Of a DNA stretch of 28,074 bases, positions 4,658 through 24,500 are shown piece by piece. Within the stretch, counting starts at the first letter, position 1. Every line of letters starts with the position of its first letter. The notes beneath the pieces were generated by a model. The model did no database searches. It saw nothing but the letters and a program-made list of their open reading frames with translations, and was not told where the DNA came from. Position numbers and translations under genes: made by a program. The stretch comes from Clostridium sp. CAG:413 (GTDB lineage: Bacteria > Bacillota > Clostridia > Oscillospirales > Acutalibacteraceae), in assembly GCA_000431775.1 (NCBI GenBank), contig FR888212.1, positions 1 through 28,074 of the forward strand, given 5' to 3'.

Positions 4658-4673
4658 AACGGAGGCCAAAAGA

Positions 4674-5579: not shown

Positions 5580-5798
5580 ATGACTAAGAAGATCAATATG
5601 GCGGCAATAAGACTCAAGGTCTTTATCGACAGCTTCCTTCATCAGGAGAGGGGCGCGGTTGATATCGTTGCGATTGTCATCCTTATTGCCATTGCTGTTG
5701 TTTTGGCTGTTTTCTTTAAAGAGCAAATAGCAAGTCTTTTGAAAACCATGATGAAAACCATTCAAGAGAAAGCAGGCGGACTATCTCAGAATATTTAA
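5580..5798 (+). CDS. Flp1-like type IVb pilin, 72 aa
   Basis: This is the likely major pilin. A 25-residue leader ends QERG, and prepilin peptidase should cut after Gly25, leaving a 47-residue mature pilin. The mature protein starts AVDIVAIVILIAIAVVLAVFF, the hydrophobic stalk, followed by a short Lys-rich amphipathic helix. The usual Glu at mature position +5 is absent; an Asp at +3 is the only acidic residue nearby, as seen in Flp1-like pilins of Bacillota. The Shine-Dalgarno GAAAGGAGGGG is the strongest in the operon, as expected for a structural subunit. The gene is followed by a stable hairpin (5815-5838). A prepilin peptidase is encoded at 11474. Confidence 0.88.
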   Translation: MTKKINMAAIRLKVFIDSFLHQERGAVDIVAIVILIAIAVVLAVFFKEQIASLLKTMMKTIQEKAGGLSQNI

Positions 5799-5838: not shown

Positions 5839-5879
5839 GATCCCCCAAAGATTTAATCCTCCGTCAGGAGTTGAGTTAT

Positions 5880-6545
5880 ATGATCAAAAAATTTATTAAA
5901 GAAGAAAAAGCGGTTGCAACCATAGTGGAGGCGACCATAGTGTTCCCCGTCATGTTTTTGGTTATTATCTTTATGCTGTTTATGGGGAACGCCTATTATC
6001 AGATGTCACGCATAGACGCTATCGTTGCCGAGTGTGCGATGGAGGGTGCCGCCGCCTGCACCGACCCATTCTATTATCGCGTACGCGATGAAGTGAAAAA
6101 GAGCGGCGATGCTCCGATAAGCAATAACGATATACAGCCGTATCGTTATGTTATCGGAGTTAACGGCAACTCGGGCAATATCAAAGAGGTACGAATAAAG
6201 ATCGAGGAGAAGCTGACAAAGGCGATCAAGGATACGGGCTTTTTCGGCGGCATGAAGCCGACGATAACGGCTCATCAAGTGCAGTATAAGAGCAATTTCT
6301 TTTACGCCACCTTCGCCGTCGAGGTGCATTATCGTATAACAATTCCGGTAAGGCTGCTCGGCGAGCGGAATTTTGAGATATTAAAGAGCTCGGCACGTTC
6401 CGAGGTTGCAGTCAATGACCCGGCGGATTTCATACTCAATACCGATATGGTTTTGGATTATATAGAGGGTTCCAAGACAGGCCAAAAGGCGATTCAAAAG
6501 ATCCAGGAAGCCATGGGTAAGGTCAGAGAATTTCTCAATCTCTAA
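5880..6545 (+). CDS. TadE-like pseudopilin, 221 aa
   Basis: A short basic N-terminus (MIKKFIKEEK) is followed by AVATIVEATIVFPVMFLVII, the TadE hydrophobic segment with its conserved Glu, and then by an extracytoplasmic domain of about 170 residues. TadE proteins are minor pilins/pseudopilins of the Tad pilus, cut by the prepilin peptidase. If the Glu is placed at mature +5, the residue before the cut is Val rather than Gly, so processing is uncertain. The start is the ATG at 5880, 9 bases after AGGAG (5866-5870). A TTG at 5871 touches the Shine-Dalgarno and cannot be the start. It is separated from the pilin gene by 81 bases containing the hairpin. Confidence 0.85.
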   Translation: MIKKFIKEEKAVATIVEATIVFPVMFLVIIFMLFMGNAYYQMSRIDAIVAECAMEGAAACTDPFYYRVRDEVKKSGDAPISNNDIQPYRYVIGVNGNSGNIKEVRIKIEEKLTKAIKDTGFFGGMKPTITAHQVQYKSNFFYATFAVEVHYRITIPVRLLGERNFEILKSSARSEVAVNDPADFILNTDMVLDYIEGSKTGQKAIQKIQEAMGKVREFLNL

Positions 6546-9500: not shown

Positions 9501-9856
9501 CACTTAGCGGCAAAAAAAACAACAGCAACAGCAGCAACGGTATTATCGGCACAGAGCTCCCATTTTTCAGATACAGCGACTATTTGAGATTTTTCCTGAT
9601 ACTAAAGCTGCTCGGCAGCGGAGAGGACGGCGTTTGCCGACGAACCGCAGATGTTGTGCAGGTCAATATGAAGAAAAGCTTAGGCAAAGAATCTACATTT
9701 GCGCTTGCCCAATCAAAGGTCTATTTTAAGATTAATGCGAATGTCAAGGTAAGACCGCTGATGCTTTCGCTGAGCATTAATGCAAGCGAGGCCAATCCGT
9801 ACACCTCACTCAGCGAATTGGCATCATTTGACTACGAGATGATACGAGGATATTAG
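6563..9856 (+). CDS. TadG-like / DUF5702 large surface protein, 1097 aa
   Basis: The N-terminus (KKTKGVISIFLVIILVPMLT, then ASSLFVDVSKMVLAHSVAESA) resembles the Tad-like segment of TadG and DUF5702 proteins of Bacillota. The central part (about residues 130-690) is long and helical, with many Lys/Glu and probable coiled coil. A charged low-complexity linker (about 690-770, rich in Lys, Glu, Asp, Gly, Ser) follows. The C-terminal conserved region contains a hydrophobic stretch near residue 910 (AELAASISAATLGIIPVPAV) and ends in ASFDYEMIRGY. It is probably anchored by its N-terminal helix with the bulk outside the membrane. Start ATG at 6563 after GAGGAGG. Base composition is uneven, with low-GC blocks (28-35% by line) at 7681-7800 and 58% at 8041-8100. 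Confidence 0.8.
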   Translation: MFHGFKKTKGVISIFLVIILVPMLTASSLFVDVSKMVLAHSVAESAADLALNTVLTHYDKELNEYFGLIASAQSMDEAYKTAKDFFVSCMKSQEISEEDASNLTNALNKYLFSNSSEGFSDFLGIYTDEDSLDVEPIKNGNLANPAVFKTQVVEFMKYRGPINAVTEFFSFLKSNSEQLSQMDEITEMTEKKQEFYEAESGLMQTLYDLYKSLKEYDACNLTAETLRTVHNNIKHGAKYEGAYREIHKNIISNAINTEWYNSEYEKTSFPTANLAGAAKLKSTKATVTSGDSTIQVSVPDVQAAANALINAYKVYKDGVTTVLNGLELCGALESKECVYHNKKDQIHDIQYFGIVGGTVKGSNLFTNFQAQVNAFERAYLNYEVTCKKMKEFEKNYGYGYSDDISLEWQSDFRNDARLTETECSPEAFLDKATTLRRGIYGDGSAVALCKDIDNHLATIAGSIIGKTYTDRTRSVANSISKISEEIKGYKTTLDTASKALDTALVNAGNVLDALNGYKTGLDNWDSAANKASLDSAAGNGSIVETDRDEIATKRSNKVTPETKSAKLLGEIKEDEVNALVTRLTAIKARIDFLLNGLDCCIYIGNKIEDLWLEQVTQSMRASKELNTSSFMEKDVQDNINAFDKLYKTYEDNEVLKENIIEANADNNPKIENGQLAFRDKLYKYFEEAKKDQATSGRTEENAKEDKGKLEKAGKAGKEDSPDFESGSVGGSSDKEISKELNLPSKGTGDDDKSAKKSNKLSEVSNFVTALFKDFKATASSAMVNLRDDLLFSDYVMSMFSYDTFEREGVLDYAVKEGYELSGVLDWKGNMSSYSGGWSDNADPTFHYNKTLRNNPINNNTCFSYGNEVEYILYGKTNAVNKSKAYTNIYAIRFACNLIPVFKEYWGNHTVAELAASISAATLGIIPVPAVKLLICLGVLAAESAVDLTALREGVGVKFIKTRSNEGNGLFIDVDRWINDALSGKKNNSNSSNGIIGTELPFFRYSDYLRFFLILKLLGSGEDGVCRRTADVVQVNMKKSLGKESTFALAQSKVYFKINANVKVRPLMLSLSINASEANPYTSLSELASFDYEMIRGY

Positions 9857-9868
9857 GAGGAGAGTACA

Positions 9869-10678
9869 TTGAAAAAATTACTGGCTGCTTTTTTTGCCTT
9901 AGCTTTAGTGTTTTCCGTTTCTTCCTGCGGTAAAACGGGAGCGAATTCGGAGAGCGGAGAAGGAGGGTCGCAATCATTGACCGATACCGGAGCGGCAACC
10001 ACCGCGGAGCAAGAAATAACAGAGAGTGATTCTGCAAGCCAAGAGGGCTTTATAACGGACGAAATCGAAGACGGTATTTGCATTGACGGTTATAACGGTA
10101 CAGCAAGCGAAATCGTCATTCCGAGCAGCATAGACGGCAAGCCGGTCGTGTCGATAGCGTATCTTGCATTTTGCGGAAATGAGACTATAAAAAAGCTTGT
10201 TATACCCGAAACGGTAAAAATGATAGGAACACGAGCTTTTTGGAAGTGCAAGTCTCTGGAAAGCATTACATTCAATGAAGGGATCGAGATTATCGATGAG
10301 GGCGCTTTCTCAGACTGTTATAAGATCACAAGCGTAGTCTTTCCTTCAAGCATTAAGGAGATACGCAACAATGCTTTTGTAAAATGTAGCAATTTGAAAA
10401 CGATTGAGTTTGTCGGCGCACACGATTTGAAAATTCGGCAAAACGCATTCGGAGAGACCGCCGTAGAGAACATAATATTGCCGGAGGGGGTGACGGAAGT
10501 CGGGCATGAGGCATTTTCCTATATGCCGTTAAAAACCGTGTATATCCCTGCGAGTGTAACAAGTATTGATCCCGCTGCTTTTATGTATAGCGCTACAGAT
10601 CTGACAATAAGGGGAAAAGCCAGTTCTGTGGCTGAGTCATATGCCAAAGAACAAGATATCCCCTTTGTAACCGAATAA
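9869..10678 (+). CDS. BspA-type LRR_5 lipoprotein, 269 aa
   Basis: The type II signal peptide ends in a lipobox, SVSSC, with Cys20 as the predicted lipidated residue, so the protein is tethered to the outer face of the membrane. A low-complexity Ser/Gly/Thr/Glu linker (about 21-60) follows, then about six BspA-like leucine-rich repeats (LRR_5), with units such as IKKLVIPETVKMIGTRAFWK and LESITFNEGIEIIDEGAFSD. LRR_5 proteins of gut bacteria are generally surface binding proteins; the ligand here is unknown. The start is a TTG at 9869, 8 bases after AGGAGG (9855-9860). It sits between the TadG-like gene and the second TadE-like gene, which suggests it works with the pilus. Confidence 0.9.
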   Translation: MKKLLAAFFALALVFSVSSCGKTGANSESGEGGSQSLTDTGAATTAEQEITESDSASQEGFITDEIEDGICIDGYNGTASEIVIPSSIDGKPVVSIAYLAFCGNETIKKLVIPETVKMIGTRAFWKCKSLESITFNEGIEIIDEGAFSDCYKITSVVFPSSIKEIRNNAFVKCSNLKTIEFVGAHDLKIRQNAFGETAVENIILPEGVTEVGHEAFSYMPLKTVYIPASVTSIDPAAFMYSATDLTIRGKASSVAESYAKEQDIPFVTE

Positions 10679-10685
10679 TATTGAC

Positions 10686-10701
10686 GGAGGCGAGAATGTG
10701 A
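10686..10701 (+). promoter_or_regulatory. GGAGG site with overlapping ATG-stop and GTG start
   Basis: GGAGG (10686-10690) is followed by cgagaATGTGaag. The ATG at 10696 would be followed directly by TGA (10699-10701), a start-stop pair. The real frame starts with the overlapping GTG at 10698, 7 bases from the Shine-Dalgarno. Initiation at the ATG would abort after one codon, so this arrangement may lower expression of the following pseudopilin. Confidence 0.5.
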
Positions 10702-11420
10702 AGAATAACGAGCGTGGAGCGGTTGTCATAGAGGCGACGATAGCGCTGACAACATACATATTTGTTATTTATACCATACTTACTTTGGTTAATATTTGCT
10801 TTGCCCAAGCTAAAATCGGCATAGCCGTAAATTGTGCGGCCAAGGAAATTTCGCAGTATTCTTATCTTTATTCGCTGACCGGAATTAATGATTTGAAGAA
10901 AGATGCAAAAGAAGCCGGCAAAAAATCTGATGCGGCGGTCAATGATATGGTCGGCGGTATTGAGACTATGTATAGCATGATAGGCAATGTGAATGCCGAT
11001 AATATCTCAGAGTCTTATAATACCGGGAAAAAAGCTTACGAATCAATTAAAAGCGGAGCACAGACCGTTATTGAAGACCCTAAAGAATTTGTTCTCGGTT
11101 GTGCGTACTCAGGGGCATCTGATTTGGCAGATAAAGCGGTAGGAAGTGCTTTTGCTCAGCTTGCAAAAGTTTTAGTAAAGAAAAACTTAGTTACTACTGA
11201 AGGAGCCAATTGCGAAGCACTGCTTAAATATCTCCGGATCGTACCAAAGGACGGTTCATATTTCGATGGCATAAGTTTCTCCGGCACAGAGGTGCTGCCG
11301 GGCGAAACGAACGCAGTTAAAATCGTAGCAAGCTATGACATAACTGTTATAAAGCTGCTCGATATTGATTTTAAATTTCACTTTTGCCTTTGCGGCAAGA
11401 CCGAGGCGTGGTCGGCTTAA
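10698..11420 (+). CDS. TadE-like pseudopilin with canonical cleavage site, 240 aa
   Basis: The N-terminus MKNNERG-AVVIEATIALTTYIF has a Gly before the cut and Glu at mature +5, the canonical type IV prepilin processing motif, followed by a hydrophobic helix of about 22 residues. The remaining 200 residues are extracytoplasmic, with a helical region (LKKDAKEAGKKSDAAVNDMV) and a C-terminal beta-rich part holding Cys residues (FHFCLCGKTEAW). It should be a minor pilin processed by the peptidase encoded next. The start is GTG at 10698; the overlapping ATG at 10696 is out of frame. Confidence 0.82.
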   Translation: MKNNERGAVVIEATIALTTYIFVIYTILTLVNICFAQAKIGIAVNCAAKEISQYSYLYSLTGINDLKKDAKEAGKKSDAAVNDMVGGIETMYSMIGNVNADNISESYNTGKKAYESIKSGAQTVIEDPKEFVLGCAYSGASDLADKAVGSAFAQLAKVLVKKNLVTTEGANCEALLKYLRIVPKDGSYFDGISFSGTEVLPGETNAVKIVASYDITVIKLLDIDFKFHFCLCGKTEAWSA

Positions 11421-11473
11421 CGCACCTAATTAAAAAGGTTTACAATCACTGGCGAAAGAATTGAGGGACATGG

Positions 11474-12151
11474 ATGAAGCAAAATATTTTACTTGCGTCA
11501 TTGACACTTGTCATGTGTTTTATTGCGATGTTTTCAATAAAATATACTCCAATAAAAAGAGCGGAGCAAATGAAAGAAAAGCTGAAAGCGTTTTTTCATT
11601 CTACTGCAAAAGAAGCAGTTACTTTTATTGCAATGTTCTTATCTGTGGCGGCAGTAAGCTTGATGCTTGTACTTTTTTATGAGAACAACACCGTATTGTT
11701 TAACATAAAAAGAATGGTTTTGGTTTCGCTATTGTGGATTGCGGCATATTTTGATTTTAAAAGTTATCGCATTCCGAATAAGTTGATTTTGCTCGGTTTA
11801 GCATTAAGAACAGTTATATTAATGTTTGAACTTGTTTTTGAACGAGAAGAAATACTTTACATATGCGTATCGGAACTGATAGCTGCAGCCATACTGCTTG
11901 TTATGTCTTTCGTTGCCATGTTTGTTGTTAAAAATGGACTTGGAATGGGGGACGCAAAGCTGTTTGCTGTGATGGGGCTGTATCTTGGCATTCAAGGCTC
12001 CCTCAGTGCAGTTTTTATGTCACTTATAGCGATATTCTTTATTTCCGTTATCTTAATGATAAGGAAAAAGAAAAAGCGCAAGGACAGTCTCCCATTTGCA
12101 CCTGCAATTCTTGTAGGAACGACGGTGGCCGTTTCAATATTTGGAGCATAA
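11474..12151 (+). CDS. tadV: A24-family prepilin peptidase (TadV/CpaA-like), 225 aa
   Basis: This is an aspartic membrane protease that removes the leader of pilin and pseudopilins. Both catalytic aspartates are visible: Asp94 in YFDFKSYRIPNKL and Asp160 in GLGMGDAKLF, the GxGD motif. There are about six hydrophobic segments. The domain that N-methylates mature pilins in larger enzymes is absent, as usual for Tad peptidases. An N-terminal extension of about 75 residues with one membrane helix and a Lys-rich stretch (KRAEQMKEKLKAF) is longer than the minimal CpaA form. Start ATG at 11474 after GAGGGA; an ATG at 11470 is out of frame. It is the last core Tad gene in the operon. Confidence 0.92.
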   Translation: MKQNILLASLTLVMCFIAMFSIKYTPIKRAEQMKEKLKAFFHSTAKEAVTFIAMFLSVAAVSLMLVLFYENNTVLFNIKRMVLVSLLWIAAYFDFKSYRIPNKLILLGLALRTVILMFELVFEREEILYICVSELIAAAILLVMSFVAMFVVKNGLGMGDAKLFAVMGLYLGIQGSLSAVFMSLIAIFFISVILMIRKKKKRKDSLPFAPAILVGTTVAVSIFGA

Positions 12152-12166
12152 GAGGTGGATATTTAG

Positions 12167-13471
12167 ATGAAAAGAATAAAAATGTTGGCACCGCTGTTAC
12201 TAATACTCTTAACTGTTTTTTCTTCGTACTCGTTGATATCCGGCGCTGCTCAAAAAAATAGCGAATTTAAGCAGCACATACAGAAAGCACATGAGTTGTC
12301 GGAACAAGGTATAATTGTTGACGCTGCAAAGGAATATGATGACGCGTTAGAAATGAAGCCGTCTATCGATCTCTACCTTGAAAAAGGTGAAATGTTCAAA
12401 AAAAATGATATGAACGGGAATGCGATTTCACTCGGAGAACTTGTCCTTGAGAAGTATCCTAAGGAAAGCAGGTCGTATGATTTTTTGCTTGAATGTTACT
12501 TAAAGAACAAAGACTATGAGGAGTGCTACGACCTTCTTGATAACGCTAAGAAAAGAAACCTTTCATCAGATATTATAAATGCAGCGATAAAAGAATTGCG
12601 ATATAAATATGAGTTGGACTATAAAGGATATGATGACGTTTCTGTGTTCGGAGGGGGATACTGTGCAGTAAAAAAAGGTGAATTGTGGGGCTATGTTAAC
12701 GAAAGCGGGAAGCTGTCAATTAACTATGTCTTTGAAAGTGCAGGCGTTTTTTCTGAGGATTTAGCAGCTGTTAGGGATACAGAAAAGAATATGTACTATA
12801 TTGATACACAAGGAAACCGAAAGAAAAATATAAACTCATCTGTAAAACCCGATGAAGCGGGATCGTTTTCCGGAGAGCTGGTTGCTATAAAGACAGGAAG
12901 CGATTATGCATACTATGATGACAATTTTGAGAAAAAGTCTGCGAATTATAGTTTTGCAGGTACATATTCTGAGGGGATCGCTGCTGTTTCAGAGAACGGA
13001 AATTGGTACTTGATAAATGAAAAAGGGAAAAAAATTAATTCACAGCCTTATGAGAGCGTTGCAATGAACGAAAACAGAGTCGCATTCTCAGGCGGGGTAG
13101 CATTTGTCGAGGAGAACGGAAAATATATCATGGTTGACTCCAAGGCCGAGAGAGTCGGTAGCCAAAGTTTTGATGAAGCGAAACCATTTGAAAATGGCGA
13201 AATGGCTGCTGTAAGAATCGGCGAAAAATGGGGTTTTGCAGATAAGGACGGAAATGTAATAATTGAAGCAAAGTATGATGAAGCAAGATCGTTTTCCAAT
13301 GGGCTTGCGGCAGTGCGTGAAGGTGAAACGTGGGGCTATATTAATGCGGAAAACGAAACCGCTATTGAATTTGCTTTTACGGACTGCAAAGACTTCAATA
13401 ACCACGGATGCTCTTTTGCCAAAGACGGGGAAGAGTGGGTATTGATAAAGTTGTTGGAGAAAAATCATTAA
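12167..13471 (+). CDS. Exported TPR and WG-repeat protein, 434 aa
   Basis: A signal peptide or membrane anchor (residues 1-28, MLAPLLLILLTVFSSYSLIS) has no lipobox Cys. Residues about 32-150 form TPR-like helical hairpins (AHELSEQGIIVDAAKEYDDA, ECYLKNKDYEECYDLLDNAK). Residues about 160-430 hold six or seven WG-type beta repeats, with units such as KKGELWGYVNESGKL, RIGEKWGFADKDGNV and REGETWGYINAENET. WG repeats are common in exported proteins of Bacillota and Bacteroidota and probably mediate binding; no enzymatic residues are visible. Start ATG at 12167, 8 bases after AGAGGTGG. It lies between the prepilin peptidase and the FHA gene and may be an external sensor or scaffold. Confidence 0.85.
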   Translation: MKRIKMLAPLLLILLTVFSSYSLISGAAQKNSEFKQHIQKAHELSEQGIIVDAAKEYDDALEMKPSIDLYLEKGEMFKKNDMNGNAISLGELVLEKYPKESRSYDFLLECYLKNKDYEECYDLLDNAKKRNLSSDIINAAIKELRYKYELDYKGYDDVSVFGGGYCAVKKGELWGYVNESGKLSINYVFESAGVFSEDLAAVRDTEKNMYYIDTQGNRKKNINSSVKPDEAGSFSGELVAIKTGSDYAYYDDNFEKKSANYSFAGTYSEGIAAVSENGNWYLINEKGKKINSQPYESVAMNENRVAFSGGVAFVEENGKYIMVDSKAERVGSQSFDEAKPFENGEMAAVRIGEKWGFADKDGNVIIEAKYDEARSFSNGLAAVREGETWGYINAENETAIEFAFTDCKDFNNHGCSFAKDGEEWVLIKLLEKNH

Positions 13472-13486
13472 CGGAAGGGCTATGCT

Positions 13487-15001
13487 ATGTTTAATATAGA
13501 AAATCAAGGTGTTAATACATATCTCACTTATAAAATCAGCGAAGAGGATATTGTTGATTCACTAAGTCTTGGGATGCTAACAAACAACAAGATACCCGGG
13601 GTAGCGGATGTACTGTTTACGCAAATGAACGATGACCGATATTTGAAATACAACATTTCATCAAGAATCTCGGTTAAGCAATTTTTTGAGGGCATTGTAA
13701 CAAAAAAACGTTTTCTTTCAGTATTGTCGGGGATTGCAGGAGCACTTATAGCAGCAGAAGAATACATGGTCGATCCGTCGCTGTTCATTTTAAACCCTGA
13801 TTATATATATACAGATGCTTCGACCTGTAAAACATTACTGATTTGTTTGCCGATTGAAAAGAGATCTTTTGAGCATGGCGACATCCAGTCGCTTGTTCGC
13901 AGTATAGTTTTTTCAACTCAGTATGATCAGAGCGAAAACTGTGATTATGTCCCAAAGATGATTAACTACCTGAACGGTTCGGCTTCATTCTCGATTTCGG
14001 ATTTCAAACGCTTTGTTGACAGTATAAATATCAATGCCGGCGCCAATCCAGTACATGTGATACCGCGGAATTCTCAAGAAGATAAAGTGAAGTCAAATGT
14101 CGGATATAGTTTAGTAAATCAACGCAAGATCGTTGGAAAGGCACCGGCATCACCAGCGGTTTCGACGCCTTCTGTAACGGTTGGTAGAAACGAGCAAAAT
14201 GTAAATATTCCGGCCCTAGAAATCAAAACAGGGCTTGCGATTCCTCAGGTTTTCAAAACTCCAGAAAAAAAGGACAACAAGCAGCAAAAGCAGAAAACGC
14301 CTGTAGGAACGGATGAAAAAAAGATATCTTTAATTTATTTACTACGACATTACAACAAAGAAACATTAGAGCTTTATAAAGCGCAGCATCAGGAAAGCAA
14401 TAAAGACAAAGGACACCCGGTCAAAGAAAGTGAAAAAAAGCCCAAAATCAAGATAGATGATGGATTTGCAATTCCGGGACAAAAAAATCTCAGTTTCGGA
14501 AATGGAACTGTAGCTACAAGAAACAATACGAAAACCGAAGAAAAGGAGCCTGCACCTATATCAGCGGGAAATGGCGACGTTTCGAACGGTGCAGTTTCTC
14601 TGGCGCAGCTCGGCTCTTTTGGTGAAACCACGCTTCTTGCCTCATCAGGCTTTGGCGAAACCACTGTTTTAGGCGATGAGAATGCGGCGGTGCAATCAAT
14701 GTCACAAAATGCATACCTTATAAGAGAGAAGACCGGAGAAAAAATTTTGATAAACAAGCCGAGATTTAGGGTCGGAAAAGAAAGAAGTTATGTGGATTAC
14801 TTTATCGGCGATAATACAGCAATCAGTAGAAGTCATGCCGACATTGTTTGCAGAGACAACAGATACTTTATTGTTGATATGAGATCGACAAATCACACAT
14901 TTGTAAATGAAATGTTGGTTCAAAACGGTGAAGAACGCGAGATACAATCAGGCGACAAAGTGCGGCTGGCAAACGAGGAATTCGATTTTGAGATTCGATG
15001 A
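13487..15001 (+). CDS. DUF6382-FHA domain signalling protein, 504 aa
   Basis: Residues about 1-185 match my memory of DUF6382, a kinase-fold-like domain found with FHA domains. Residues 186-410 are a low-complexity linker. Residues about 410-504 are a forkhead-associated domain that binds phosphothreonine: Gly430 in RVGKE, the SRSH motif at 447-450 and Asn469 in STNHTF are the usual ligand-contact residues. The linker carries two near-identical segments, GETTLL (379-384) and GETTVL (390-395), resembling the ETT phospho-switch of GarA/OdhI, so it may bind its own FHA domain when phosphorylated. No membrane segment. Start ATG at 13487 after GGAAGGG. The phosphatase and kinase genes follow directly. 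Confidence 0.88.
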   Translation: MFNIENQGVNTYLTYKISEEDIVDSLSLGMLTNNKIPGVADVLFTQMNDDRYLKYNISSRISVKQFFEGIVTKKRFLSVLSGIAGALIAAEEYMVDPSLFILNPDYIYTDASTCKTLLICLPIEKRSFEHGDIQSLVRSIVFSTQYDQSENCDYVPKMINYLNGSASFSISDFKRFVDSININAGANPVHVIPRNSQEDKVKSNVGYSLVNQRKIVGKAPASPAVSTPSVTVGRNEQNVNIPALEIKTGLAIPQVFKTPEKKDNKQQKQKTPVGTDEKKISLIYLLRHYNKETLELYKAQHQESNKDKGHPVKESEKKPKIKIDDGFAIPGQKNLSFGNGTVATRNNTKTEEKEPAPISAGNGDVSNGAVSLAQLGSFGETTLLASSGFGETTVLGDENAAVQSMSQNAYLIREKTGEKILINKPRFRVGKERSYVDYFIGDNTAISRSHADIVCRDNRYFIVDMRSTNHTFVNEMLVQNGEEREIQSGDKVRLANEEFDFEIR

Positions 15002-15021
15002 AACGTTTTTAGGAGTGGAAC

Positions 15022-15789
15022 ATGCAATATATTATATCTGCAAGTACAGATGTCGGCATCAAAAAGAGCACTAACCAGGATAGCCTCTCCGTGCTAAAAA
15101 TGAATTCGTCAATAGGTGAATTGGTTTTTGCTATTTTTTGTGACGGCATGGGCGGACTCAAAAAAGGCGAGGTTGCGAGCGCTTCAGTTATTAAAGCGTT
15201 TGATTCGTGGGTCAAAGATAAGCTTGGCAGTTTGTTAGCTCACGGTTTTAATAGTGATGATATATATACACAGTGGGACGACATTATTAGGACCCAAAAC
15301 AATAAAATTATGAGCTTCGGCAGAAATCTTGGAGTAAGCGTTGGGACTACAATCGTCGCAGCACTATTTGTTGGAAACCAATATTATGCGGTTAATGTCG
15401 GCGACTCGAGAGCATATGAGATAAAAGCAGAAGTCCGACAGCTCACCCATGACCATACTGTTGTTGCGCGAGAGATTGAGCTTGGTATGCTGACAAAAGA
15501 GGAAGCGGAGTCGGATCCGAGAAGGAATGTTTTGCTCCAATGTATAGGTGCCTCCGATGAGGTTCAGCCCGAGTTTTATTCCGGCAGTATAGAAAAAAAT
15601 GCTGTCTACATGATTTGTTCAGATGGCTTTATTCATGAAATAACAGAAGATGAAATTTATGATGTATTACAGCCGGACAAGATGAACGATAGTGAAGGTA
15701 TGAAGACCAATGTTGATTCACTTATAGAGCGCGACAAAAATCGTAAGGAAAAAGATAACATTTCGGTGATTACAATCAGAACGTTTTAG
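15022..15789 (+). CDS. PP2C-family Ser/Thr phosphatase (PrpC-like), 255 aa
   Basis: This is a metal-dependent protein phosphatase that would reverse the action of the kinase encoded next. Motifs in order: STNQDS near residue 18 (metal Asp), FCDGMGG with Asp41, VGDSRAY with Asp128, LTHDHT, ICSDGF with Asp201 and the C-terminal KDNIS with Asp245. All PP2C metal ligands are present. There is no membrane segment, and the length is normal for bacterial PrpC/Stp. Start ATG at 15022, 6 bases after AGGAG. It sits between the FHA gene and the kinase gene, as in PrpC-PrkC pairs. Confidence 0.95.
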   Translation: MQYIISASTDVGIKKSTNQDSLSVLKMNSSIGELVFAIFCDGMGGLKKGEVASASVIKAFDSWVKDKLGSLLAHGFNSDDIYTQWDDIIRTQNNKIMSFGRNLGVSVGTTIVAALFVGNQYYAVNVGDSRAYEIKAEVRQLTHDHTVVAREIELGMLTKEEAESDPRRNVLLQCIGASDEVQPEFYSGSIEKNAVYMICSDGFIHEITEDEIYDVLQPDKMNDSEGMKTNVDSLIERDKNRKEKDNISVITIRTF

Positions 15790-15805
15790 GGGGCAGATTG
15801 AAGAG

Positions 15806-17530
15806 ATGCTGCAGATTGGATCCGTTCTTGACGGGAAATATAAAATACTGAGTGAAATCGGCCACGGCGGTATGAGTGTAGTCTATATGGCGCTTAATGA
15901 AAAAGCTAATAAAACGTGGGCGGTTAAAGAAATACGTAAAGACGGAAGAATGGATTTCAATGTTGTCAAGCAGGGGCTTGTTGCTGAGATAGAAACGTTG
16001 AAGCGATTAAAGCACCCAAATCTTCCGAGTATAGTTGATGTTATTGAAGACGAGGATTCGTTTATTATAGTCATGGACTATATTGAGGGAAAATCGTTGG
16101 ATAATACGCTTGCGGAGCATGGAGCTCAACCGCAGGAAAATGTCATTGAATGGGCAGAGCAGCTTTGCGATGTGCTCGGTTATCTGCATTCCTGCAATCC
16201 ACCGATTATATACAGGGATATGAAGCCAGCCAATATAATGCTGAAGCCCGATGGAAACATAACGCTTATAGACTTTGGAACGGCAAAAACATATGATGTA
16301 GACCTTGGTCAAACTACAGGTATAGGCACAATAGGATATGCAGCACCAGAGCAGTTTATAAACAGCGGTATGGGTAGGACTGACGCAAGAACAGATATAT
16401 ACTGCCTCGGAATGACGTTGTATCATTTGTTGACTGGAGTAGATCCTTGTAAGAATGTCTTAGAGAGTAGATCCATACGGGCGGTCAATCCTATGCTTTC
16501 GCCCGGACTTGATGCAATTATATTGAAATGCACGGAGAGATTGCCACAAGACAGATATCAATCTTGTGCGGAGCTTCTTTATGATTTGGAGCATCAAGAA
16601 GAAATGACCGTGCCGTACAGAAAAAGGCAGTTAAAGAAGCTGACGGTGTTTTTGGTATGCGTAGCGTTATCGATATTAATGGCGGTTGCCTCCGTTGCTT
16701 TTTTTGTTGCGGCAAGCGGAAAAAGGGCAGAGAACTATGGGCTGTATATTGAGAAAGCTGCGGATCCGAGTATTTCGCAGAAAGAGCGAGAAGACTTATA
16801 TATGAAAGCGATTGAGGTTGATCCAACCAAAAAGGATGCCTACATAGACCTTGTTAATCTCTTCCTAAACAGCACGAATAACGGAATTGCATTTGAGAAA
16901 ACAGAGGCGGCAAAAATTGTTAAGCTCAATGCCGGAGTGGATACTGAAGGGAAAAATGGGTATCTAACGACGATATATCCATTTGAGCAGTTGAAAAAGA
17001 GTGATCCGAATGGATATGCCGAAGTTTGTAACGATATAGGGCTCGCTTACTGGTATGATTATGAAGTCGAATCGGAGCGATATTCGTTGGCAACAGAGTG
17101 GTTTGAAAAAGCGGCCGAAAAGTATCCGTTAGCGCAGGTTTTTTGTGATATTGGTAAATGCAAAATAGAAATAGCAAAGTACCGAGATCAAAAAAGGACA
17201 GAAAAGATGTATGCGGCATATGATGTGCTTTGGACTAAAACAAAGGATCTTGTTAAGAATGCCGGTACACTTGACGATAACGATATTAAGATACTTGTTT
17301 GGAATGAAACCATAAATAATATTTATAGTGAAATACAATACTTCCTTGTAAACATATCGGAATCTGACATTTATGGATTGCTTGACGAGATTATACTCAA
17401 TGCCGAAGATCTAAAAAAGACAACTTCTTTAAGCGAAGTAAAATCACTTCTGGATGAGGTTATCCTGAATGCAGATGTAGCGAAGCAACGCACAAGAGAA
17501 GCAGTTGCGGCAAGAAGGGGTGATAGATAA
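15806..17530 (+). CDS. Transmembrane Ser/Thr protein kinase with external TPR-like region, 574 aa
   Basis: The cytoplasmic Hanks-type kinase domain (about 10-270) has the Gly-rich loop GHGGMSVVY (19-27 region), catalytic Lys41 in AVKEI, catalytic loop YRDMKPAN with Asp138, DFG at 156-158 and APEQF in the activation segment. HRD is changed to YRD, common in bacterial kinases, so the enzyme should be active. A single membrane helix spans about 280-303 (FLVCVALSILMAVASVAFFV). Residues 304-574 are predicted outside and resemble TPR-type helices (ERYSLATEWFEKAAEKYPLA) rather than PASTA domains, so the signal is probably not muropeptide. Start ATG at 15806, with AGGGGG about 12 bases upstream. It begins 16 bases after the phosphatase. 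Confidence 0.93.
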   Translation: MLQIGSVLDGKYKILSEIGHGGMSVVYMALNEKANKTWAVKEIRKDGRMDFNVVKQGLVAEIETLKRLKHPNLPSIVDVIEDEDSFIIVMDYIEGKSLDNTLAEHGAQPQENVIEWAEQLCDVLGYLHSCNPPIIYRDMKPANIMLKPDGNITLIDFGTAKTYDVDLGQTTGIGTIGYAAPEQFINSGMGRTDARTDIYCLGMTLYHLLTGVDPCKNVLESRSIRAVNPMLSPGLDAIILKCTERLPQDRYQSCAELLYDLEHQEEMTVPYRKRQLKKLTVFLVCVALSILMAVASVAFFVAASGKRAENYGLYIEKAADPSISQKEREDLYMKAIEVDPTKKDAYIDLVNLFLNSTNNGIAFEKTEAAKIVKLNAGVDTEGKNGYLTTIYPFEQLKKSDPNGYAEVCNDIGLAYWYDYEVESERYSLATEWFEKAAEKYPLAQVFCDIGKCKIEIAKYRDQKRTEKMYAAYDVLWTKTKDLVKNAGTLDDNDIKILVWNETINNIYSEIQYFLVNISESDIYGLLDEIILNAEDLKKTTSLSEVKSLLDEVILNADVAKQRTREAVAARRGDR

Positions 17531-18043
17531 ATGGATTATGAATCTTACATGAATCTTTGCTACGCCGCCGCGGCAGTAAGTGGTTTTTTTGTGATTGTTT
17601 CTACAATACTGTTCTTCAAACTGAAGATTTTATCGGTTGTTGGTGACTTGAGTGGCGTTACCGCTAGAAAAGCAATAGAAAATATTCGCAATCAAAATGC
17701 TGCAACAAAAAATAAAGCTCACAAATCAAGTCTTGTCAATCAAGAAAGAGGAAAGGTTACAGATAGAATTACTCCGTCAGGCAAGCTTTTGTCGAGTGAA
17801 AGCGGAGGCGTTTATGTCAATGTCGGCACAGAGAAAATTATGGGCAGCGAAGAGACGACGGTTTTAAAAACCAACTCAGCCAAAGATAGCACAACTTTGA
17901 TGCCTTCACACACTAACGAGTTACCCTTTGATACGGATAACTTTTTACAACCTGAGGAAACAACCGTGCTTGAAACGGTGGGTTCATTTGTTGAGATCGA
18001 AGAAAAAATTACATTTATACACTCTAATGAGAGTGTTGAGTGA
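17531..18043 (+). CDS. Small membrane protein with two EETTVL motifs, 170 aa
   Basis: I recognise no named family. One membrane helix (about 10-30, AAAAVSGFFVIVSTILFF) is followed by a basic cytoplasmic tail that becomes acidic. The tail holds EETTVL at residues 107-112 and again at 142-147, with STTLM between them. These match the ETT-V-L motifs in the FHA protein linker, so the tail is a likely kinase target and FHA docking site. The ATG abuts the kinase stop codon (TAA-ATG), with AAGGGG inside the end of the kinase gene, suggesting translational coupling. It may tether the FHA protein to the membrane near the pilus base. Confidence 0.75.
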   Translation: MDYESYMNLCYAAAAVSGFFVIVSTILFFKLKILSVVGDLSGVTARKAIENIRNQNAATKNKAHKSSLVNQERGKVTDRITPSGKLLSSESGGVYVNVGTEKIMGSEETTVLKTNSAKDSTTLMPSHTNELPFDTDNFLQPEETTVLETVGSFVEIEEKITFIHSNESVE

Positions 18044-18054
18044 GGAGAGGAAAA

Positions 18055-18501
18055 ATGGATAAAAGCAAAAATTTGGCAAAAGTGACGCTTGTGGCGGAAA
18101 TTATTTTTATGGTGATGTTATCTGTCTCTTTTCTGATAATGCCGTTTGCAAACAAAATGTCGCTCAATGAAGGGAAGAACACGCTGCTATACTTTTCCGG
18201 GGCAATGTTTTGGGCATCGTTGGTTTTTGAGGCGGTTTTCCTCATTGCAAATGGAGCCATATGCAAAAAAAGAATAATGCCGGAAAATAAAAGTCGACCG
18301 GGAGCTTTGAGGTTTTTTACCAACACAACGGCAAAAATTATTGATATATTGGCTATCCTATCAATTATAGGGTTTGTCATATGCGCTTTTTTGACCGACA
18401 AGTATGTTACTTATGGCTTTTTGTCGGCAATGCTGCTTCTGGTTCAGTTGCACTGCGTTGTAAACGGCAAGAATTTTGAATATATTAATTCGTTATCATA
18501 A
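18055..18501 (+). CDS. Four-helix membrane protein of unknown function, 148 aa
   Basis: I do not recognise a family. Four hydrophobic segments are visible: VAEIIFMVMLSVSFLIMPF, MFWASLVFEAVFLIANGAI, IIDILAILSIIGFVICAFL and YGFLSAMLLLVQLHCVV. A basic loop (KKRIMPENKSRP) between helices 2 and 3 suggests a cytoplasmic loop. The start is the ATG at 18055, 7 bases after GAGGAG (18042-18047). An in-frame GTG at 18040 overlaps the previous stop and has no site. It lies directly before the giant surface protein gene, so a role in its export or anchoring is possible. Confidence 0.7.
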   Translation: MDKSKNLAKVTLVAEIIFMVMLSVSFLIMPFANKMSLNEGKNTLLYFSGAMFWASLVFEAVFLIANGAICKKRIMPENKSRPGALRFFTNTTAKIIDILAILSIIGFVICAFLTDKYVTYGFLSAMLLLVQLHCVVNGKNFEYINSLS

Positions 18502-18515
18502 GAGGAGACATAACA

Positions 18516-21500
18516 ATGAAAAAGACGGTTAACTCAAAATTCATTAAGGCAATTTCCTTTGTGCTGGCATTGCTGATGGTTGTCGGAGTGGTGCCAATTC
18601 ACAGAGGTCTGTTTGAGGCGGCGGCTACGGCAGGCGATCGACTTTGCTTGCAGGTTATACGCAGTGGTGCCGTTGTAAAAAACGATGAGAAATTTAACTG
18701 CACGATTACAAATTCAGACTCTTCGTTTTCATATGCCGGCACTACAGGAGCAAGCGGTGTTTGGGAGACGGACTATGTTGTCGGAGATGACTATGCAGGC
18801 GATAATGATTTTACCGTTTCTGTCGGCACAAAAACAGTTGCGATTTCAAAAGATCTCCGTACGGCGGAGAAGTATTTTATATATGATCTAAATGACGGAA
18901 GTGTGAGTTGGTCGGAAAATGCTGTGACAAAGGCTGCCCTTATAAGCGTTGCCAGTGTTTCGGATATTACCGGACTTTCAAACGGCACGGAGAAAACCGC
19001 AGCAGCGTTTGGCTTGCCTGAGACGGTTAACGTCATAACGACAGCGGGAGAAAAAGAACTTGATGTTACATGGGGCGTTGAAGCATCAAAGTATGATCCG
19101 GCAATCCACACGGCGCAGGAATTTGTTGTTAACGGTACGATTTTACTTGACGACGAGACAATCAATCCTGATAGCGTTTCACTTTTAGTCTCGGTTACTG
19201 TGTCGGTCAATGCCGATGATGATGCAACGGTTTCTGTTTCTCCTGGTAGTGTTAGCAAAAAGGCCGGCGAGACGGTTGTTTTAGTTGCTTATGCAACTTT
19301 ATCGGATGGTGCTTTTACATGGTATAAAGGCAACAAAGTTATAACCGGTGAAAATAAGTCAGAGCTTACGATAAAGAATATTACCTCTGATGATGCAGGC
19401 GAATATAAATGCGCAGTAAAGGGCTTAAACGGTAACACTATATTCAGCAACTCGGTCAATGTTTCAGTTGACAAGTTGCCGGTAACGATATCTTTGACAA
19501 CATCCGAGAAGTCTATGGTAAGACCGGTTAAAAAAGGACTCGTTTTAAGTGTTAATGGAATTCCGACAGATGCCAAAGGTACGGTAACATTTTATGCGGG
19601 TAGTGAAGTTATCTCAAGCGGAACGGATAACAAAGTGACATTTGTCCCTGCAAAAGAAAACGATTATAGATTTAGGGTTGTATTTTCGGGTGACGAAAAG
19701 TATTCTTCGGCTTCGGATGAGCTGGATTTCTCTTTTGTCAAGGGTGCGCAAAGCGCACTTTCATTCAAATCCGTTATTCCTTCTGAGATATGGATAGGTG
19801 ACATATCTTTTGCTGTGAGGACAAATGGTGGCTCCGGTGACGGAGATGTTGTTTACTCGATCGTCGAGCAAAAGGATGAATACGGTAAGGAATCGACGGG
19901 TATTGCACGAATTACGACTAACGGAACAGTATTTGTTGAGAAAGTCGGCGAATTCAAAATTGAAGTAAAAAAACTCGGTGATAATGATTACAATGATAGT
20001 GACCTACTTACAAGCGATGCTATAAAAGTTGTTAAAAGGACTCAAAGCAATTTTGAGTTTGCTATAGCGGCTCCCGAGACGATAAAATTTAATGAAAATA
20101 ACAATGAATTTGTAAATGCTGCGAACGGTGGAAGCGGTTCGGGTGAAATCACTTATTCTGTAAGTGACAAAAGTATAGCCGAGATCGACGCGGTAAATCC
20201 ATCTAAAATTCATATTAAAAAGGCAGGTACGGTTATAGTTACTGCTTTGCGCAGTGGTGGTGAGAAGTATCTTGACGCTAAAGCGTCTTATACTTTGACA
20301 GTCGAAAAAGCTGATCAGGTTATAGAGTTCGCAGAGGATGCTCCAAAGGAGATCTTTTACGGGCAGGATTTGATTTGTGCGGCGAAGGAAAGAGAAGACG
20401 CATCAAAACCTGATGGAAAGGGTTATGGTTCCGGCGAGATTACATATTCAATTTCTGAGGGTCAGGGAATTGCATCCATTGATGAAAAAACCGGCAAGCT
20501 GATTTTTGCTGATGAAGCTGTTGGACTTGTTACAGTCAAAGCTAAAAAGACAGCTTGTGACAGTTATAATGAGGCAGTTGCCACATATAGCTTTGAAGTA
20601 AAGCCTTTTGTAATTGATGGTGTACCATATGAAATCGGCGGCGAAACGAAAAATGAAAGCGGATGGTATACCAGTGATATCACTGTTACTGCAGTGACTG
20701 GATACACACTAAGTGCCAGCAAGAGCCGTCTTGACAGCAACTCTTGGGATAACCGTTCTTTGGTTATTAGTAAAGAAGGTGTCGAAAACGGAATAACTCT
20801 ATACTTCAGAAGCAGCGAAACGGGAGCGATCAGCGAGGGAGTTACGCTTGAAAATGACAAGCTCAAAATTGATAAGGAAAAGCCCTACGATCTTGCTATA
20901 ACATATTCAAATGAATACTGGTGGGAAGATATTGCCAAGGCCGTAATGTTTGGCACATATGACAGCAATATAAGCTTTACCGTTGAGGCTAGGGACGCTT
21001 ATTCGGGTATAGAGAGGTTTGAATGGGAATATAATCGCGATAAAAATGCTGCAGAGAATATCGTTGAGCATCTTGAAGGTAACGGAGACGCCCAAAAGAA
21101 CGGAGAAAACAGCTACTCAGCAACATTTACACTCCCCATCACCGATATCTCGCAGATAAGGGGTAAAATATCCTTTAGTGCTTTTGACATTGCAGGTTGG
21201 CAGGAGAGCTTTGAGGATACAAGGCTTATTATCATTGACACAATGGATCCGGCAATTGATATTGCTTATGAAGGCGATTATAAAGGATCTGTAGATAAAA
21301 ACAATAAAGAAGTACCCAAAGATTCAGAAAATGCAAGGCTCGTTTACGGTAGCGACATCAAAGCGAAGATATCGGTGAAAGAAGCAAATTTCTGGCCGGA
21401 AATCGTTAATGTTACACTTGACGGCAATGATGTTTTTTGCACATGGGATAAAGATAGCGATTGCTATGTGACGGAGGTAGATATTACCGGTGACGGTGAA

Positions 21501-24500
21501 CATACTCTCTGCGTTACGGCGCTTGATGCCACATATAATAATGTAGCCGACAAGGACAAACATAAAGTTGAAGTTCGCTCTTGTGTGCTTATTGATACTG
21601 TTTCTCCAAGTGTCGACATAAAGGACCCCCAAAGTAGCAGTGAACCTAAGAACGGCAAATATTTCTCGGACGACGCTTCTGTGGAAATAGTTATTAATGA
21701 AGAGAATTTTAACCCCGATGGTGTGGTTGTTTCTGTGGAAACGACAAATGCTGAAGGCGAAAAGATAGGGATTTCTGATGATTTCGGAAGTTTTGTAAAG
21801 AATCCTAATAATTGGGCCTCAGACGGAGCTGAGCATATATTGACACTTAATTTTGTCGAAAGTGCAAGATACATTCTAAGTGTGGCATATACCGATCTGG
21901 CGGGGCTGAGGAGCAGCAAGGACCTCGATGAGTTTGTTATTGACAAAACTGCGCCGAATAAAAGCGACATCGTTATTACATATAACGAAGAGGATATCGT
22001 TAACAAACTTGCAAATATCCTTTATTTCCGCACGGTTCGTATTACAGTAACTGCGTCAGATGACATTTCCGGTATAGACCGCATTGAATGGGGGTATGAG
22101 AAAACCGCCGGCGCAAGTGAGGCAAATGTAGAGGCTGCAAGCGGAATAGTGGAGCACAAGAATTTGCACAGAATCGGCGAAAGCAAGTATTCGGCATTAA
22201 TCAAGATTCCGAGAGAACTTGTTGAAAACGAACAGTTTGACGGCAAATTCAACGCAGAAGCATTCAACATGGCTGGCCTCGGAAGCGAGAACGTGACGGA
22301 CGAGCGAAGAGTAATTGTGGATTCAATTGCGCCCGGAAGGTCTGTTAACTACGGCACGCCTCATATCATTTCTGCGGATACTGCAACTGACAAGGAATAC
22401 TTTAGCGAAGGCGAAAATGTTAAACTCTTTTACGCAGAAAAAGCCGAGCTCAAGCTAACAATAAACGAAGCAAACTTCTATGCGGAAGATATAAATACCG
22501 TGTCCGATGCGCTTAACGGTTTGAACTGCAAGGTTACGGTCGTGAAGGATTCAGGCGCACCCTGCGATTTGACTCCTACGAATTGGGAATCGGACGGTGA
22601 TAATCATACCGGTAGCATCGTTCTTGACACCGATGGAGAATACACCATTACAATTGACTACACGGATCGCAGCGGCAATGTGATGGAGCAGTATACTACA
22701 CCGCTAATTATTGTCGATAGCGTTGCGCCGGTTATCAGTGGCACAATTTCTCCTGAAGGTAGGTATGGAACAGATAAGCGTGAAATACATGTTGCTGTAA
22801 ATGAAAAGAACTTCAGAGCTTCGGACTTTGATATATTAATCAAAGAGTTTGACCTTGACGGAGCTGAAACAGTAAAAACCGTTGTTGACGAGTGGATACA
22901 TAACGGTGATGAGCACACGCTCACATTTATAGTTGACAATGAGTCTCGCTATGCCGTTACGGTCAACGGAAAGGATCTCAGCTTAAATGAAGCAGAGAGC
23001 TTTACCTTCGACGAATTCGTGATTGACCGCACAAAGCCGGAAATCAAAAGCATAGAGTATAAGACTCCTGTTAATGAAGCGATAATCAATGCCGTAACAT
23101 TCGGATATTTCAATCCCTCAGTTGAGGTAACCATAACGGCACATGACGGTGTTTCAGGTGTTGATAAAATCCTTTGCAATTATTTGAGAGCAAATGGTGT
23201 AAGCTCAGTAAATGAAGAAAGTTGGAGCGATTCATTTGCATTTGAACAGAGTGATGATTTAGCGATAGCGCAGGCAGTGTTCATCCTTCCTGAGAAATCT
23301 TATAACGGTCATTTTTCATGCGATGCAATAGACAGGGCGTCCAATTCAACTGTTGGTACTAACGGCTCATATACTGATGGTAAGTATAGGGTCGTTGTTG
23401 ACAGTACTGCGCCGGAGTGGCTCGAATCATATATTTCGGCAGAACAATACATAAACGAGGCAACTCTTGACGTAATCGATACCCCGGATAAAACATCCGA
23501 CACATGGTTTGCAATAAGCCAAAACGAAGCGATCATTAAATTCAAGATTAATGAGGCTAATTTTTATTCAGAGGATTTTAATGTCGCAGGGACAAGCTTT
23601 AATAACATGAATTGTACAGTTACACTCAGCAAAGATGGCGGTGCCCCATATCCGGTTACTGCAGAGTGGAGCGATGAAGGAGATGTTCACTCCGGAACAG
23701 TCGTAATATCTGAAGAAGGCGATTATCGACTGAATGTAAGTTACAGTGATCGCAGCGGCAATGCGATGAATTCATATATATCACCGAAGATAGTGATTGA
23801 TCGTACGGCACCGGTAATATCGGCAGAATACAACAGCACTATGCCTCCCAATAATGGGAATTGCTACAGAAAGGATGTCAGCGTTACCATTACAGTAAAA
23901 GAACGCTATTTCAGAGCAGAAGATATGGCTTTCAGTCTCACTGAAGCTAAAGATGTTTCCGGCAAAATCATAGATGGGTTTGCTGAGATAGAAGATAACT
24001 TCTTGCAAGCGCTTAAAGACAGAAATAATTGGAGTAGCAGCGGAGATATACATACGGCAACGATCACTTTCTCCACGGATGCAAACTATGCGTTTGCTCT
24101 TAACTGTACGGATGTTGCCGGAAACTCTTCTGAACAATTTGATTCGGAGAAGTTTACAGTTGATAAGACTTCTCCTTATGGTATTACAATTGATTACAGT
24201 GAACCAAGGCTTAGCGCTGTGATCAGTGCAGTTACATTCAATTACTATAATCCTTCTGCAACTGTTACAATTACAGCAAGTGATGATACTTCGGGAATTG
24301 ACAGCATTTCTTGGAATTACAACCGCGCCGACGGTGCGAGCGGCACAAATGTTGTGTCAGATTCCGGCGTCATAAGTGATTTGGATTATTCTGCCGGTGG
24401 ACGAATTGCCACGGGAAAATTTGTGCTTCCGTATTCAGGCAGTAATGGACAGTATTATGGGAATATAACCGTTTCCGCTGTGGATAAAGCCGGAAATTCT

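Follow-up and report, generated by a model that had tools for sequence, protein, structure and literature searches.

A putative phosphothreonine switch in a Tad pilus operon of Clostridium sp. CAG:413

What role might a protein kinase, a phosphatase and an FHA domain play in an operon for a Tad pilus? The question is raised by a stretch of DNA from Clostridium sp. CAG:413 (assembly GCA_000431775.1, contig FR888212.1, positions 1 to 28,074 of the forward strand), which is analysed here at its full length of 28,074 nucleotides and called the window; residue numbers refer to the proteins that it encodes. Between 13487 and 18043, on the plus strand, lie genes for a DUF6382-FHA protein (hereafter the scaffold), a PP2C-type phosphatase, a Hanks-type kinase and a small membrane protein. 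We estimate at about two in three (0.66) the probability that, as judged from sequence, the Tad pilus machine is controlled by this module as a phosphothreonine switch. The direct basis for this reading is the gene content, the linkage to Tad genes, the intact kinase and phosphatase residues and an enriched motif shared by two of the proteins; the kinase fold modelled for DUF6382 and the closeness of the FHA domain to those of OdhI and GarA provide further grounds.

The four genes are consecutive and downstream of the core Tad genes with gaps of fewer than 25 bases, exactly as a preliminary description of the same DNA had it: measured from the preceding WG-repeat gene through scaffold, phosphatase and kinase to the small membrane protein, the spacings are 15, 20, 16 and 0 bp. 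That description was right about these four genes and drew the boundary of the module too short, since two further genes (18040-18501 and 18516-27098) continue the run with spacings of -4 and 14 bp. The scaffold (13487-15001, 504 aa; PF19909 and PF00498, AlphaFold2 model and fold searches) is composed of a DUF6382 domain (residues ~1-183), a mostly disordered linker and an FHA domain (~407-504). The phosphatase (15022-15789, 255 aa; PF13672/PF00481) has conserved acidic positions, D41, D201 and D245 being kept in all 71 aligned rows and D20 in 70, which agrees with the earlier claim of a PP2C with its metal ligands if, as we take it, these four residues are the ligands. The kinase (15806-17530, 574 aa; PF00069) has an N-terminal kinase domain, one membrane-spanning stretch and an all-helical C-terminal part, in which the AlphaFold2 model shows a long helix (269-319) and then helices up to residue 573. 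In an alignment of 41 kinases (that of the window, 39 from the 78 related loci introduced below and one from a locus designated L081), Lys41, Glu61, Arg137-Asp138, Lys140, Asn143, Asp156-Phe-Gly158 and Glu182 are identical in 41/41. These positions are the catalytic Lys, Glu, RD, Lys, Asn, DFG and APE-Glu, so that the earlier view of a complete transmembrane Hanks kinase is borne out. The kinase does not reach the threshold of the PASTA kinase Stk1/PrkC model NF033483 (202 vs 450 bits), matching only positions 1-272 of the 563 in the profile, and the nearest of 37 compared kinases, from a metagenome-assembled Clostridia genome (L048), is 85% identical over 266 columns. The small membrane protein (17531-18043, 170 aa), which resembles TseK/TseH by its sequence, motif sites and homologues, has a single N-terminal hydrophobic stretch followed by a long polar tail (topology read by eye) that is presumably cytoplasmic.

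Is the proximity to Tad genes more than an accident? Two samples bear on this. The first consists of 78 related loci, which came from a search of genome contigs for conserved scaffold peptides and lean towards the window's subgroup. The second is a panel of 196 genomes of the class Clostridia, of unstated completeness, drawn evenly regardless of the module and centred on a module-carrying genome (G014); the thresholds were E 0.001 for DUF6382 (63 genomes, 59 of them over the cut-off, with 68 matches), E 1e-30 for CpaF (84 genomes, 77 of them at >=200 bits) and E 1e-60 for EssC (12 genomes). In the panel, CpaF at >=200 bits is present in 61/63 genomes with DUF6382 vs 16/133 without it (Fisher p 6e-33), and the same table drawn with all 84 CpaF genomes reads 61, 2, 23 and 110 (p 9e-29). 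The linkage is also positional, with 48 of the 68 DUF6382 matches at most 20 kb from cpaF, 47 of these 48 being downstream of it on the same strand, and with a core Tad gene within ~11 kb of 57 matches. Most of the remaining 11 have particular circumstances: four (L116, L133, L134 and L136) have no more than 3.4 kb seen upstream, three (two in L153, one in L150) share a contig with cpaF at a distance of 21-23 kb, one (L082) is beside EssC and one (L161) is a weak match with two stops, which leaves L114 and L129 as unexplained exceptions. The related loci give a similar picture, with core Tad genes in 67/78; among the other 11, seven have less than 3.5 kb upstream, three (L018, L021 and L030) have the peptidase, pseudopilin-like and WG genes and one (L061) is a stand-alone module. 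Together, panel and positional linkage indicate that Tad loci of Clostridia commonly include DUF6382-FHA, and the panel rules out chance neighbourhood.

The two enzymes are distributed differently. FHA, PP2C and kinase genes are adjacent in 51/78 related loci, with the small protein next in 48, and among the 70 scaffolds of this sample for which a kinase or no less than 3.5 kb of downstream sequence was seen, 62 have both PP2C and kinase within 6 kb downstream. Among the 57 Tad-linked panel matches, a kinase was found on the same strand in 10, a PP2C in 9 and both in 7, which are lower bounds since some contigs end early. The kinase-phosphatase pair is thus a lineage-specific addition, near-constant around the window's branch, and not a general feature of Tad loci. 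The preliminary description, which called the genes a signalling module in a Tad operon, had named as its refutation that the module be found equally often away from Tad genes; the survey found it mostly Tad-linked. What stands is a conserved unit tied to Tad loci, whose anatomy fits a switch; exclusivity does not, since the cassette is beside EssC in L081 and beside neither machine in L061. Three side observations concern these samples. A second kind of CpaF match in the panel (350-396 bits), which may mark another Tad subtype, has no DUF6382 match within 25 kb in 16/21 cases. Many related loci come, by their record titles, apparently from animal-gut samples. Two of them, labelled Lactobacillus rogosae (L054) and Bacteroidales (L030), share the Clostridia module, and these labels look doubtful.

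How could such a module work? In the scheme that we propose, the transmembrane kinase would read an outside signal via its helical outer part and phosphorylate ETT-[VL]-L sites at their first Thr, both in the scaffold linker and on the tail of the small membrane protein. The FHA domain of the scaffold would then bind either its own linker, in a closed state, or the repeated sites of the tail, whereby the scaffold would be recruited to the membrane. Its kinase-fold domain would touch the Tad machine and permit or block pilus extension, and the PP2C would reset the switch. Phosphorylation of the candidate threonines by the module kinase and their binding by the FHA domain are inferred, and it is a guess which part of the Tad machine is touched, whether the effect is positive or negative and what the signal is.

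The candidate phospho-acceptor sites of the scaffold are in tandem directly before the FHA domain, GETTLL (Thr381/382) and GETTVL (Thr392/393), encoded at 14621-14671. In an alignment of 52 scaffolds (that of the window and 51 of 120 listed homologues, out of 1857 found), T381, T382, L384, T392 and L395 are invariant and T393 is conserved in >=90%, in a linker that is poorly conserved except for this tandem motif and, further upstream, a short helix and a FAIPG-like stretch. Residues 362-404 have a pLDDT (the model's own confidence score) below 50. The tail of the small membrane protein carries EETTVL (Thr109), STTLM (Thr121) and EETTVL (Thr144), and its homologues have up to five strict copies, some with many near-copies in a row. 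A strict form of the motif, [DE]TT[VLIM][LIVM], was counted by family in all 161 loci, some of them overlapping or near-copies. It occurs in 68/153 FHA-group proteins and 41/60 small proteins, and elsewhere in CpaF 0/77, TadB 0/95, TadC 1/105, TadE 2/88, DUF5702 2/109, peptidase-like proteins 0/116, PP2C 1/92, kinases 3/87, EssC 1/20 and 7/1413 unlabelled open reading frames (ORFs) longer than 150 aa.

A broad form, an acidic residue within three positions before a Thr that is followed by x-[VLIM]-[LIVM], is concentrated in the same places. The scaffold tables cover scaffolds outside L079-L096 with a kinase or 3.5 kb seen downstream, and for the broad motif those with linkers of at least 80 aa. 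In the last 60 residues before the FHA domain there are 116 sites in 73 kinase-linked scaffolds (1000 shuffles: mean 3.3, max 11) and 34 sites in 35 unlinked ones (mean 1.7, max 7), and the rest of the linkers contains 3 and 4 sites, respectively. The tails of 60 small proteins hold 175 sites (300 shuffles: mean 13.7, max 25). In the window itself, DUF5702 has two sites and TadZ, TadB, TadC, Flp, TadE, peptidase, PP2C and kinase have none. In L081, scaffold and small protein share another form of the motif, with EATGLL repeats and KT[DE]LL (read by eye).

Could the FHA domain read such sites? By sequence, the nearest solved FHA domains are those of OdhI and GarA (E 4e-5 to 3e-4), and the fold-search lists include the FHA domain of DgcB with its own phosphopeptide. 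According to the accessible text of a study on the latter, FHA domains often read the +3 residue, OdhI and GarA are named as self-interacting FHA domains, and DgcB from Bdellovibrio binds its own phosphorylated N-terminal tail, the +3 residue being important (PMC6733907); in ETTVL, the residue at +3 from the first Thr is Leu. The ETTS motif of OdhI/GarA is phosphorylated, as stated in the part consulted of another paper (PMC8546545), and the window scaffold, too, has a Thr-Thr motif in a disordered stretch directly before its FHA domain. It differs from OdhI and GarA by its extra kinase-fold domain and by a motif that is doubled and repeated on a second protein, and it scores 26.1 bits with the NCBIfam OdhI model, for which the cut-off is 200. 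It differs from DgcB in what the FHA domain is joined to, a kinase-fold domain rather than a GGDEF output enzyme.

The phosphate-binding site opens another reading, in which DUF6382-FHA would serve clostridial Tad machines structurally, as an adaptor independent of phosphorylation whose FHA domain and motif have ceased phospho-reading, with the kinase acting elsewhere. Such an adaptor would account for the Gly that replaces the phosphate-site Ser in 28/41 panel scaffolds, and there is a precedent in T7SSb, one of the type VII secretion systems (T7SS), where EssC FHA domains without a binding site dock on the EssB pseudokinase, presumably in a phosphorylation-free manner (PMC11217815, accessible text). 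Yet the Ser (Ser447) is kept in 71/75 scaffolds of the window's group, as are His450 and Asn469 in 75/75, and it is present in 58/60 scaffolds with the strict motif, which makes this reading highly improbable. Residue 431 is Lys in 70/75 of the window's group and Arg in 30/41 panel scaffolds. The Ser is kept in 66/73 kinase-linked vs 13/35 unlinked scaffolds, and in the panel in 9/14 scaffolds with a kinase or PP2C vs 4/24 others (p 0.005); in the 78 related loci alone, Ser and kinase are unassociated (60/63 vs 6/7, p 0.35). These sequence counts, uncorrected for descent, hint that phospho-reading accompanies the enzymes.

At the other end of the scaffold, the DUF6382 domain has a protein-kinase fold according to its AlphaFold2 model and fold searches, Foldseek returning 6z0f, 3uqc and 8cba at E 2e-4 to 3e-4 over ~210 columns, while the Pkinase profile of Pfam finds no match in the protein. 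Because of this modelled fold, the scaffold looks like a pseudokinase-FHA protein. The fold is shared with the YukC/EssB pseudokinase, the kinase-homology domain of Rv3910 and TraF, from which DUF6382 differs in being fused to its own FHA domain, and identity is low (11-14%).

Does the switch belong to the pilus at all? Parts of this sort were described in 2024 as core components of the type VII secretion systems T7SSe and T7SSj (Garrett et al., PMC11217815), the one paper of the literature searched that mentions DUF6382. As its accessible text has it, T7SSe comprises a kinase TseD, a PPM phosphatase TseF and a DUF6382-FHA protein TseJ, TseK and TseH each combine a single transmembrane helix with a short cytoplasmic part that is unstructured, and TsdI, the T7SSd relative of TseI, is large, with a signal peptide, Ig-like domains and a C-terminal transmembrane segment. 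Judged by domain, published description and homology to L081, the window thus has the D kinase, the F phosphatase, the J DUF6382-FHA protein and the I giant Ig-like protein; its small protein fits H or K alike by sequence reading and resembles that of L081 over 40 aa. What differs is the machine, a Tad operon being present where an EssC-type ATPase, YukD and WXG100 proteins would be expected. In 20 window proteins scanned, including every ORF of >=200 aa, EssC/TseC (FtsK/SpoIIIE) has no match over the cut-off, and WXG100 and YukD are absent from the same 20, short ORFs having been scanned in part. Tad neighbours are noted for T7SSg and T7SSh, and the accessible text mentions none for T7SSe/j (PMC11217815).

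A reading that follows from this is that the cassette (D, F, J, K/H and I of T7SSe/j) is a T7SS regulator merely adjoining the Tad genes, the ATPase and WXG100 genes being elsewhere in the genome. Beyond the published assignment, it is supported by L081, a T7SS locus in which all six cassette genes occur in window order and are followed by an FHA gene (DUF6382 match below the cut-off), an AAA ATPase gene, YukD and EssC. Identity to the window is 55% for the FHA part of the scaffold, 47% for PP2C, 37% for the kinase, 45% over 40 aa for the small protein, 29% over 90 columns for the multi-pass protein and 34.5% over 1272 columns for the giant protein. In two other loci (L086, 1-14501, and L087, 1-16060, at the places of L044 and L069), Tad genes, DUF6382-FHA and then EssC and WXG100 occur in a single stretch, with YukD present in L086 and a YukD match below the cut-off in L087. 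EssC is also commoner in panel genomes with DUF6382 (9/63 vs 3/133, p 0.002), a link weaker than that of CpaF. Nevertheless, 54 of these 63 genomes have no EssC at E 1e-60, only 1/68 DUF6382 matches is at most 20 kb from EssC vs 48/68 near cpaF, and EssC is found in 2/78 related loci. Among 40 genomes searched of those carrying the 78 loci, all with a Tad-type scaffold, EssC is over the cut-off in 7, so that the cassette must usually work without this ATPase; the 33/40 without it are an upper estimate of its absence because the genomes are possibly not complete and there are a few additional matches that are long but weak. Ownership by a T7SS alone is therefore unlikely. In a kinase tree of 37 rows (20 named of the 78 loci and the qualifying kinases of L079-L161), L081 is placed beside L153 without strong support (87/67), within a starred set of 26 rows to which the window's kinase also belongs; given its long branches, the tree fits exchange between Tad and T7SS in either direction. 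A side observation on L081 is that its second FHA gene and AAA ATPase gene (11049-13039), directly upstream of YukD and EssC, are perhaps further parts common to Tad and T7SS; the ATPase was picked up by the TadZ profile and lacks the TadZ receiver domain in Pfam.

The genes that follow the module suggest yet another master, the cell envelope. The gene at 18040-18501 encodes a small multi-pass membrane protein (an ORF without a Pfam match), and that at 18516-27098 a giant TseI/TsdI-like protein of 2860 aa, identified by Pfam and by homology to L081, with a signal-like N-terminus, Ig-like domains and a C-terminal hydrophobic stretch followed by a basic tail. Homologues occur in 29/78 and 38/78 related loci, respectively. 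The kinase might control these surface proteins, Tad and T7SS being neighbours that use the same surface, and it fits this idea that the giant and multi-pass proteins stay with the module both in L081 and in many Tad loci. So does L061, where a TadZ-like gene, a zinc-ribbon gene, DUF6382-FHA, PP2C, kinase and small membrane protein (8206-14071) adjoin glycosyltransferase genes in a 21-kb locus with neither a core Tad gene nor EssC, CpaF being on another contig of that genome. An envelope switch is rather improbable, however, given that DUF6382-FHA is Tad-linked in many loci that have no kinase.

Several findings weigh against a switch that acts on the pilus. The cassette of L081, with its T7SS, and that of L061, on its own, imply that the target need not be a pilus. 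The motif does not follow the kinase: with a single Thr, the broad form is found in 29/35 scaffolds without a linked kinase vs 63/73 with one (Fisher p 0.77), and in the panel alone the trend is in the opposite direction (23/28 unlinked vs 5/10 kinase-linked, p 0.09). For the strict form, neither sample by itself shows an association with a linked kinase (p 0.62 and 0.28); one arises when they are pooled (p 3e-7), a signal that sample and descent may create, and the motif was accordingly rejected as a marker of a linked kinase. The strict motif is missing from 19/60 small proteins. The correlation between Ser and kinase is weak in the panel alone (6/10 vs 7/28, p 0.06, uncorrected for descent), and residue 431 of the window FHA domain is Lys where OdhI and GarA have Arg. 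Finally, the broad motif is common in CpaF (136 sites, 4.7 per 1000 aa). These sites are mostly at two conserved places, T80 (2774-2782) and T315 (3479-3487) in the window, and probably reflect the fold; CpaF was set aside as a further FHA target on this account.

The closest parallels of a phosphothreonine switch on the pilus lie in other machines. The type VI secretion system (T6SS) of P. aeruginosa has a PpkA-PppA-Fha1 trio. The preliminary description had invoked it, and what the two share is a kinase, a PP2C and an FHA gene together with a surface machine; ppkA-pppA are named in H1-T6SS in the part of the source consulted (PMC3224232). The FHA protein of the window is not of the TagH/Fha1 type, scoring 31.1 bits with the TagH model TIGR03354 vs a cut-off of 120.25. 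A T6SS-type FHA protein was therefore rejected, and the likeness is one of logic only. Nearer to Tad, the Tad-like Kil apparatus of Myxococcus has, according to accessible text, been proposed to use FHA-based signalling (PMC8460266), and class III CpaF proteins are reported to carry an FHA domain (PMC12019362). These Tad-like machines with FHA domains are from other phyla, the FHA domain is fused to the ATPase, and the word 'kinase' is absent from the main text of the Kil paper. The earlier statement that no phospho-switch had been described for Tad pili holds in part: a literature search that left out most subscription papers and bioRxiv preprints found no kinase/phosphatase/FHA switch for a monoderm Tad pilus, and the FHA domains of Kil and CpaF had already been reported. 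A defence island was also considered and rejected, PADLOC matches being confined to the kinase domain and the phosphatase, with none for the scaffold and both small membrane proteins.

The rest of the window is in keeping with a Tad locus. ORFs and Pfam matches delineate a single run of genes on the plus strand from 1437 to 27098, and the families PF00437, PF00482, PF16982, PF01478, PF07811 and PF13400, by which Tad loci were recognized, are all found. The run begins with a TadZ-like gene (1437-2525; receiver domain by Pfam), cpaF (2537-3775; T2SSE ATPase, PF00437), tadB (3788-4657; T2SSF, with PF00482 below the cut-off at 21.7 vs 25.2 bits) and tadC (T2SSF, PF00482; ORF 4569-5546, the true start probably being later), followed by genes for an Flp1-like pilin (5580-5798; PF16982), a TadE-like protein (5871-6545; Pfam) and a DUF5702/Tad protein (6563-9856; Pfam). 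Next, inside the operon, is a BspA-type leucine-rich repeat protein (9869-10678; Pfam), of which a homologue was seen in 18/78 related loci. A pseudopilin-like gene (10698-11420), so labelled for its hydrophobic N-terminus and its place since it has no Pfam match, precedes that of a type IV prepilin peptidase (11474-12151; PF01478). The last gene before the module (12167-13471) encodes a protein with a hydrophobic N-terminus, TPR-like repeats and WG beta repeats (PF14903, five stretches), which may belong to the system; it has a homologue in 72/78 related loci, often immediately 5' of the FHA gene. Outside the run are a tRNA-Ala (cgc) gene (55-130) and a minus-strand HD-domain gene (278-895) upstream, and after the giant Ig-like gene a methyltransferase gene (Pfam) on the opposite strand.

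A broader proposal, tentative and as a whole somewhat less likely than not, is that a single exchangeable phosphothreonine cassette of Clostridia (kinase, PP2C, pseudokinase-FHA scaffold, multi-site membrane tail and giant Ig-like envelope protein) is fitted to Tad pili as well as to T7SS, machines unrelated to each other. The repeated ETTVL sites would then be a dose-counting docking strip that gathers several scaffolds at the base of the machine to gate it, DUF6382-FHA would be a general, unrecognized part of clostridial Tad systems and the 'T7SSe core components' would for the most part be carried with Tad systems.

T6SS is gated by threonine phosphorylation, a mode of control also suggested for T7SS subtypes and the Tad-like Kil apparatus. 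For the putative switch on the Tad pilus of Clostridium sp. CAG:413 and its relatives, the present analysis supplies the exact residues with which it can be tested, ties DUF6382 to Tad loci and, by modelling, to a kinase fold, and places a gene set published as T7SS components mostly with Tad loci in the genomes searched here.

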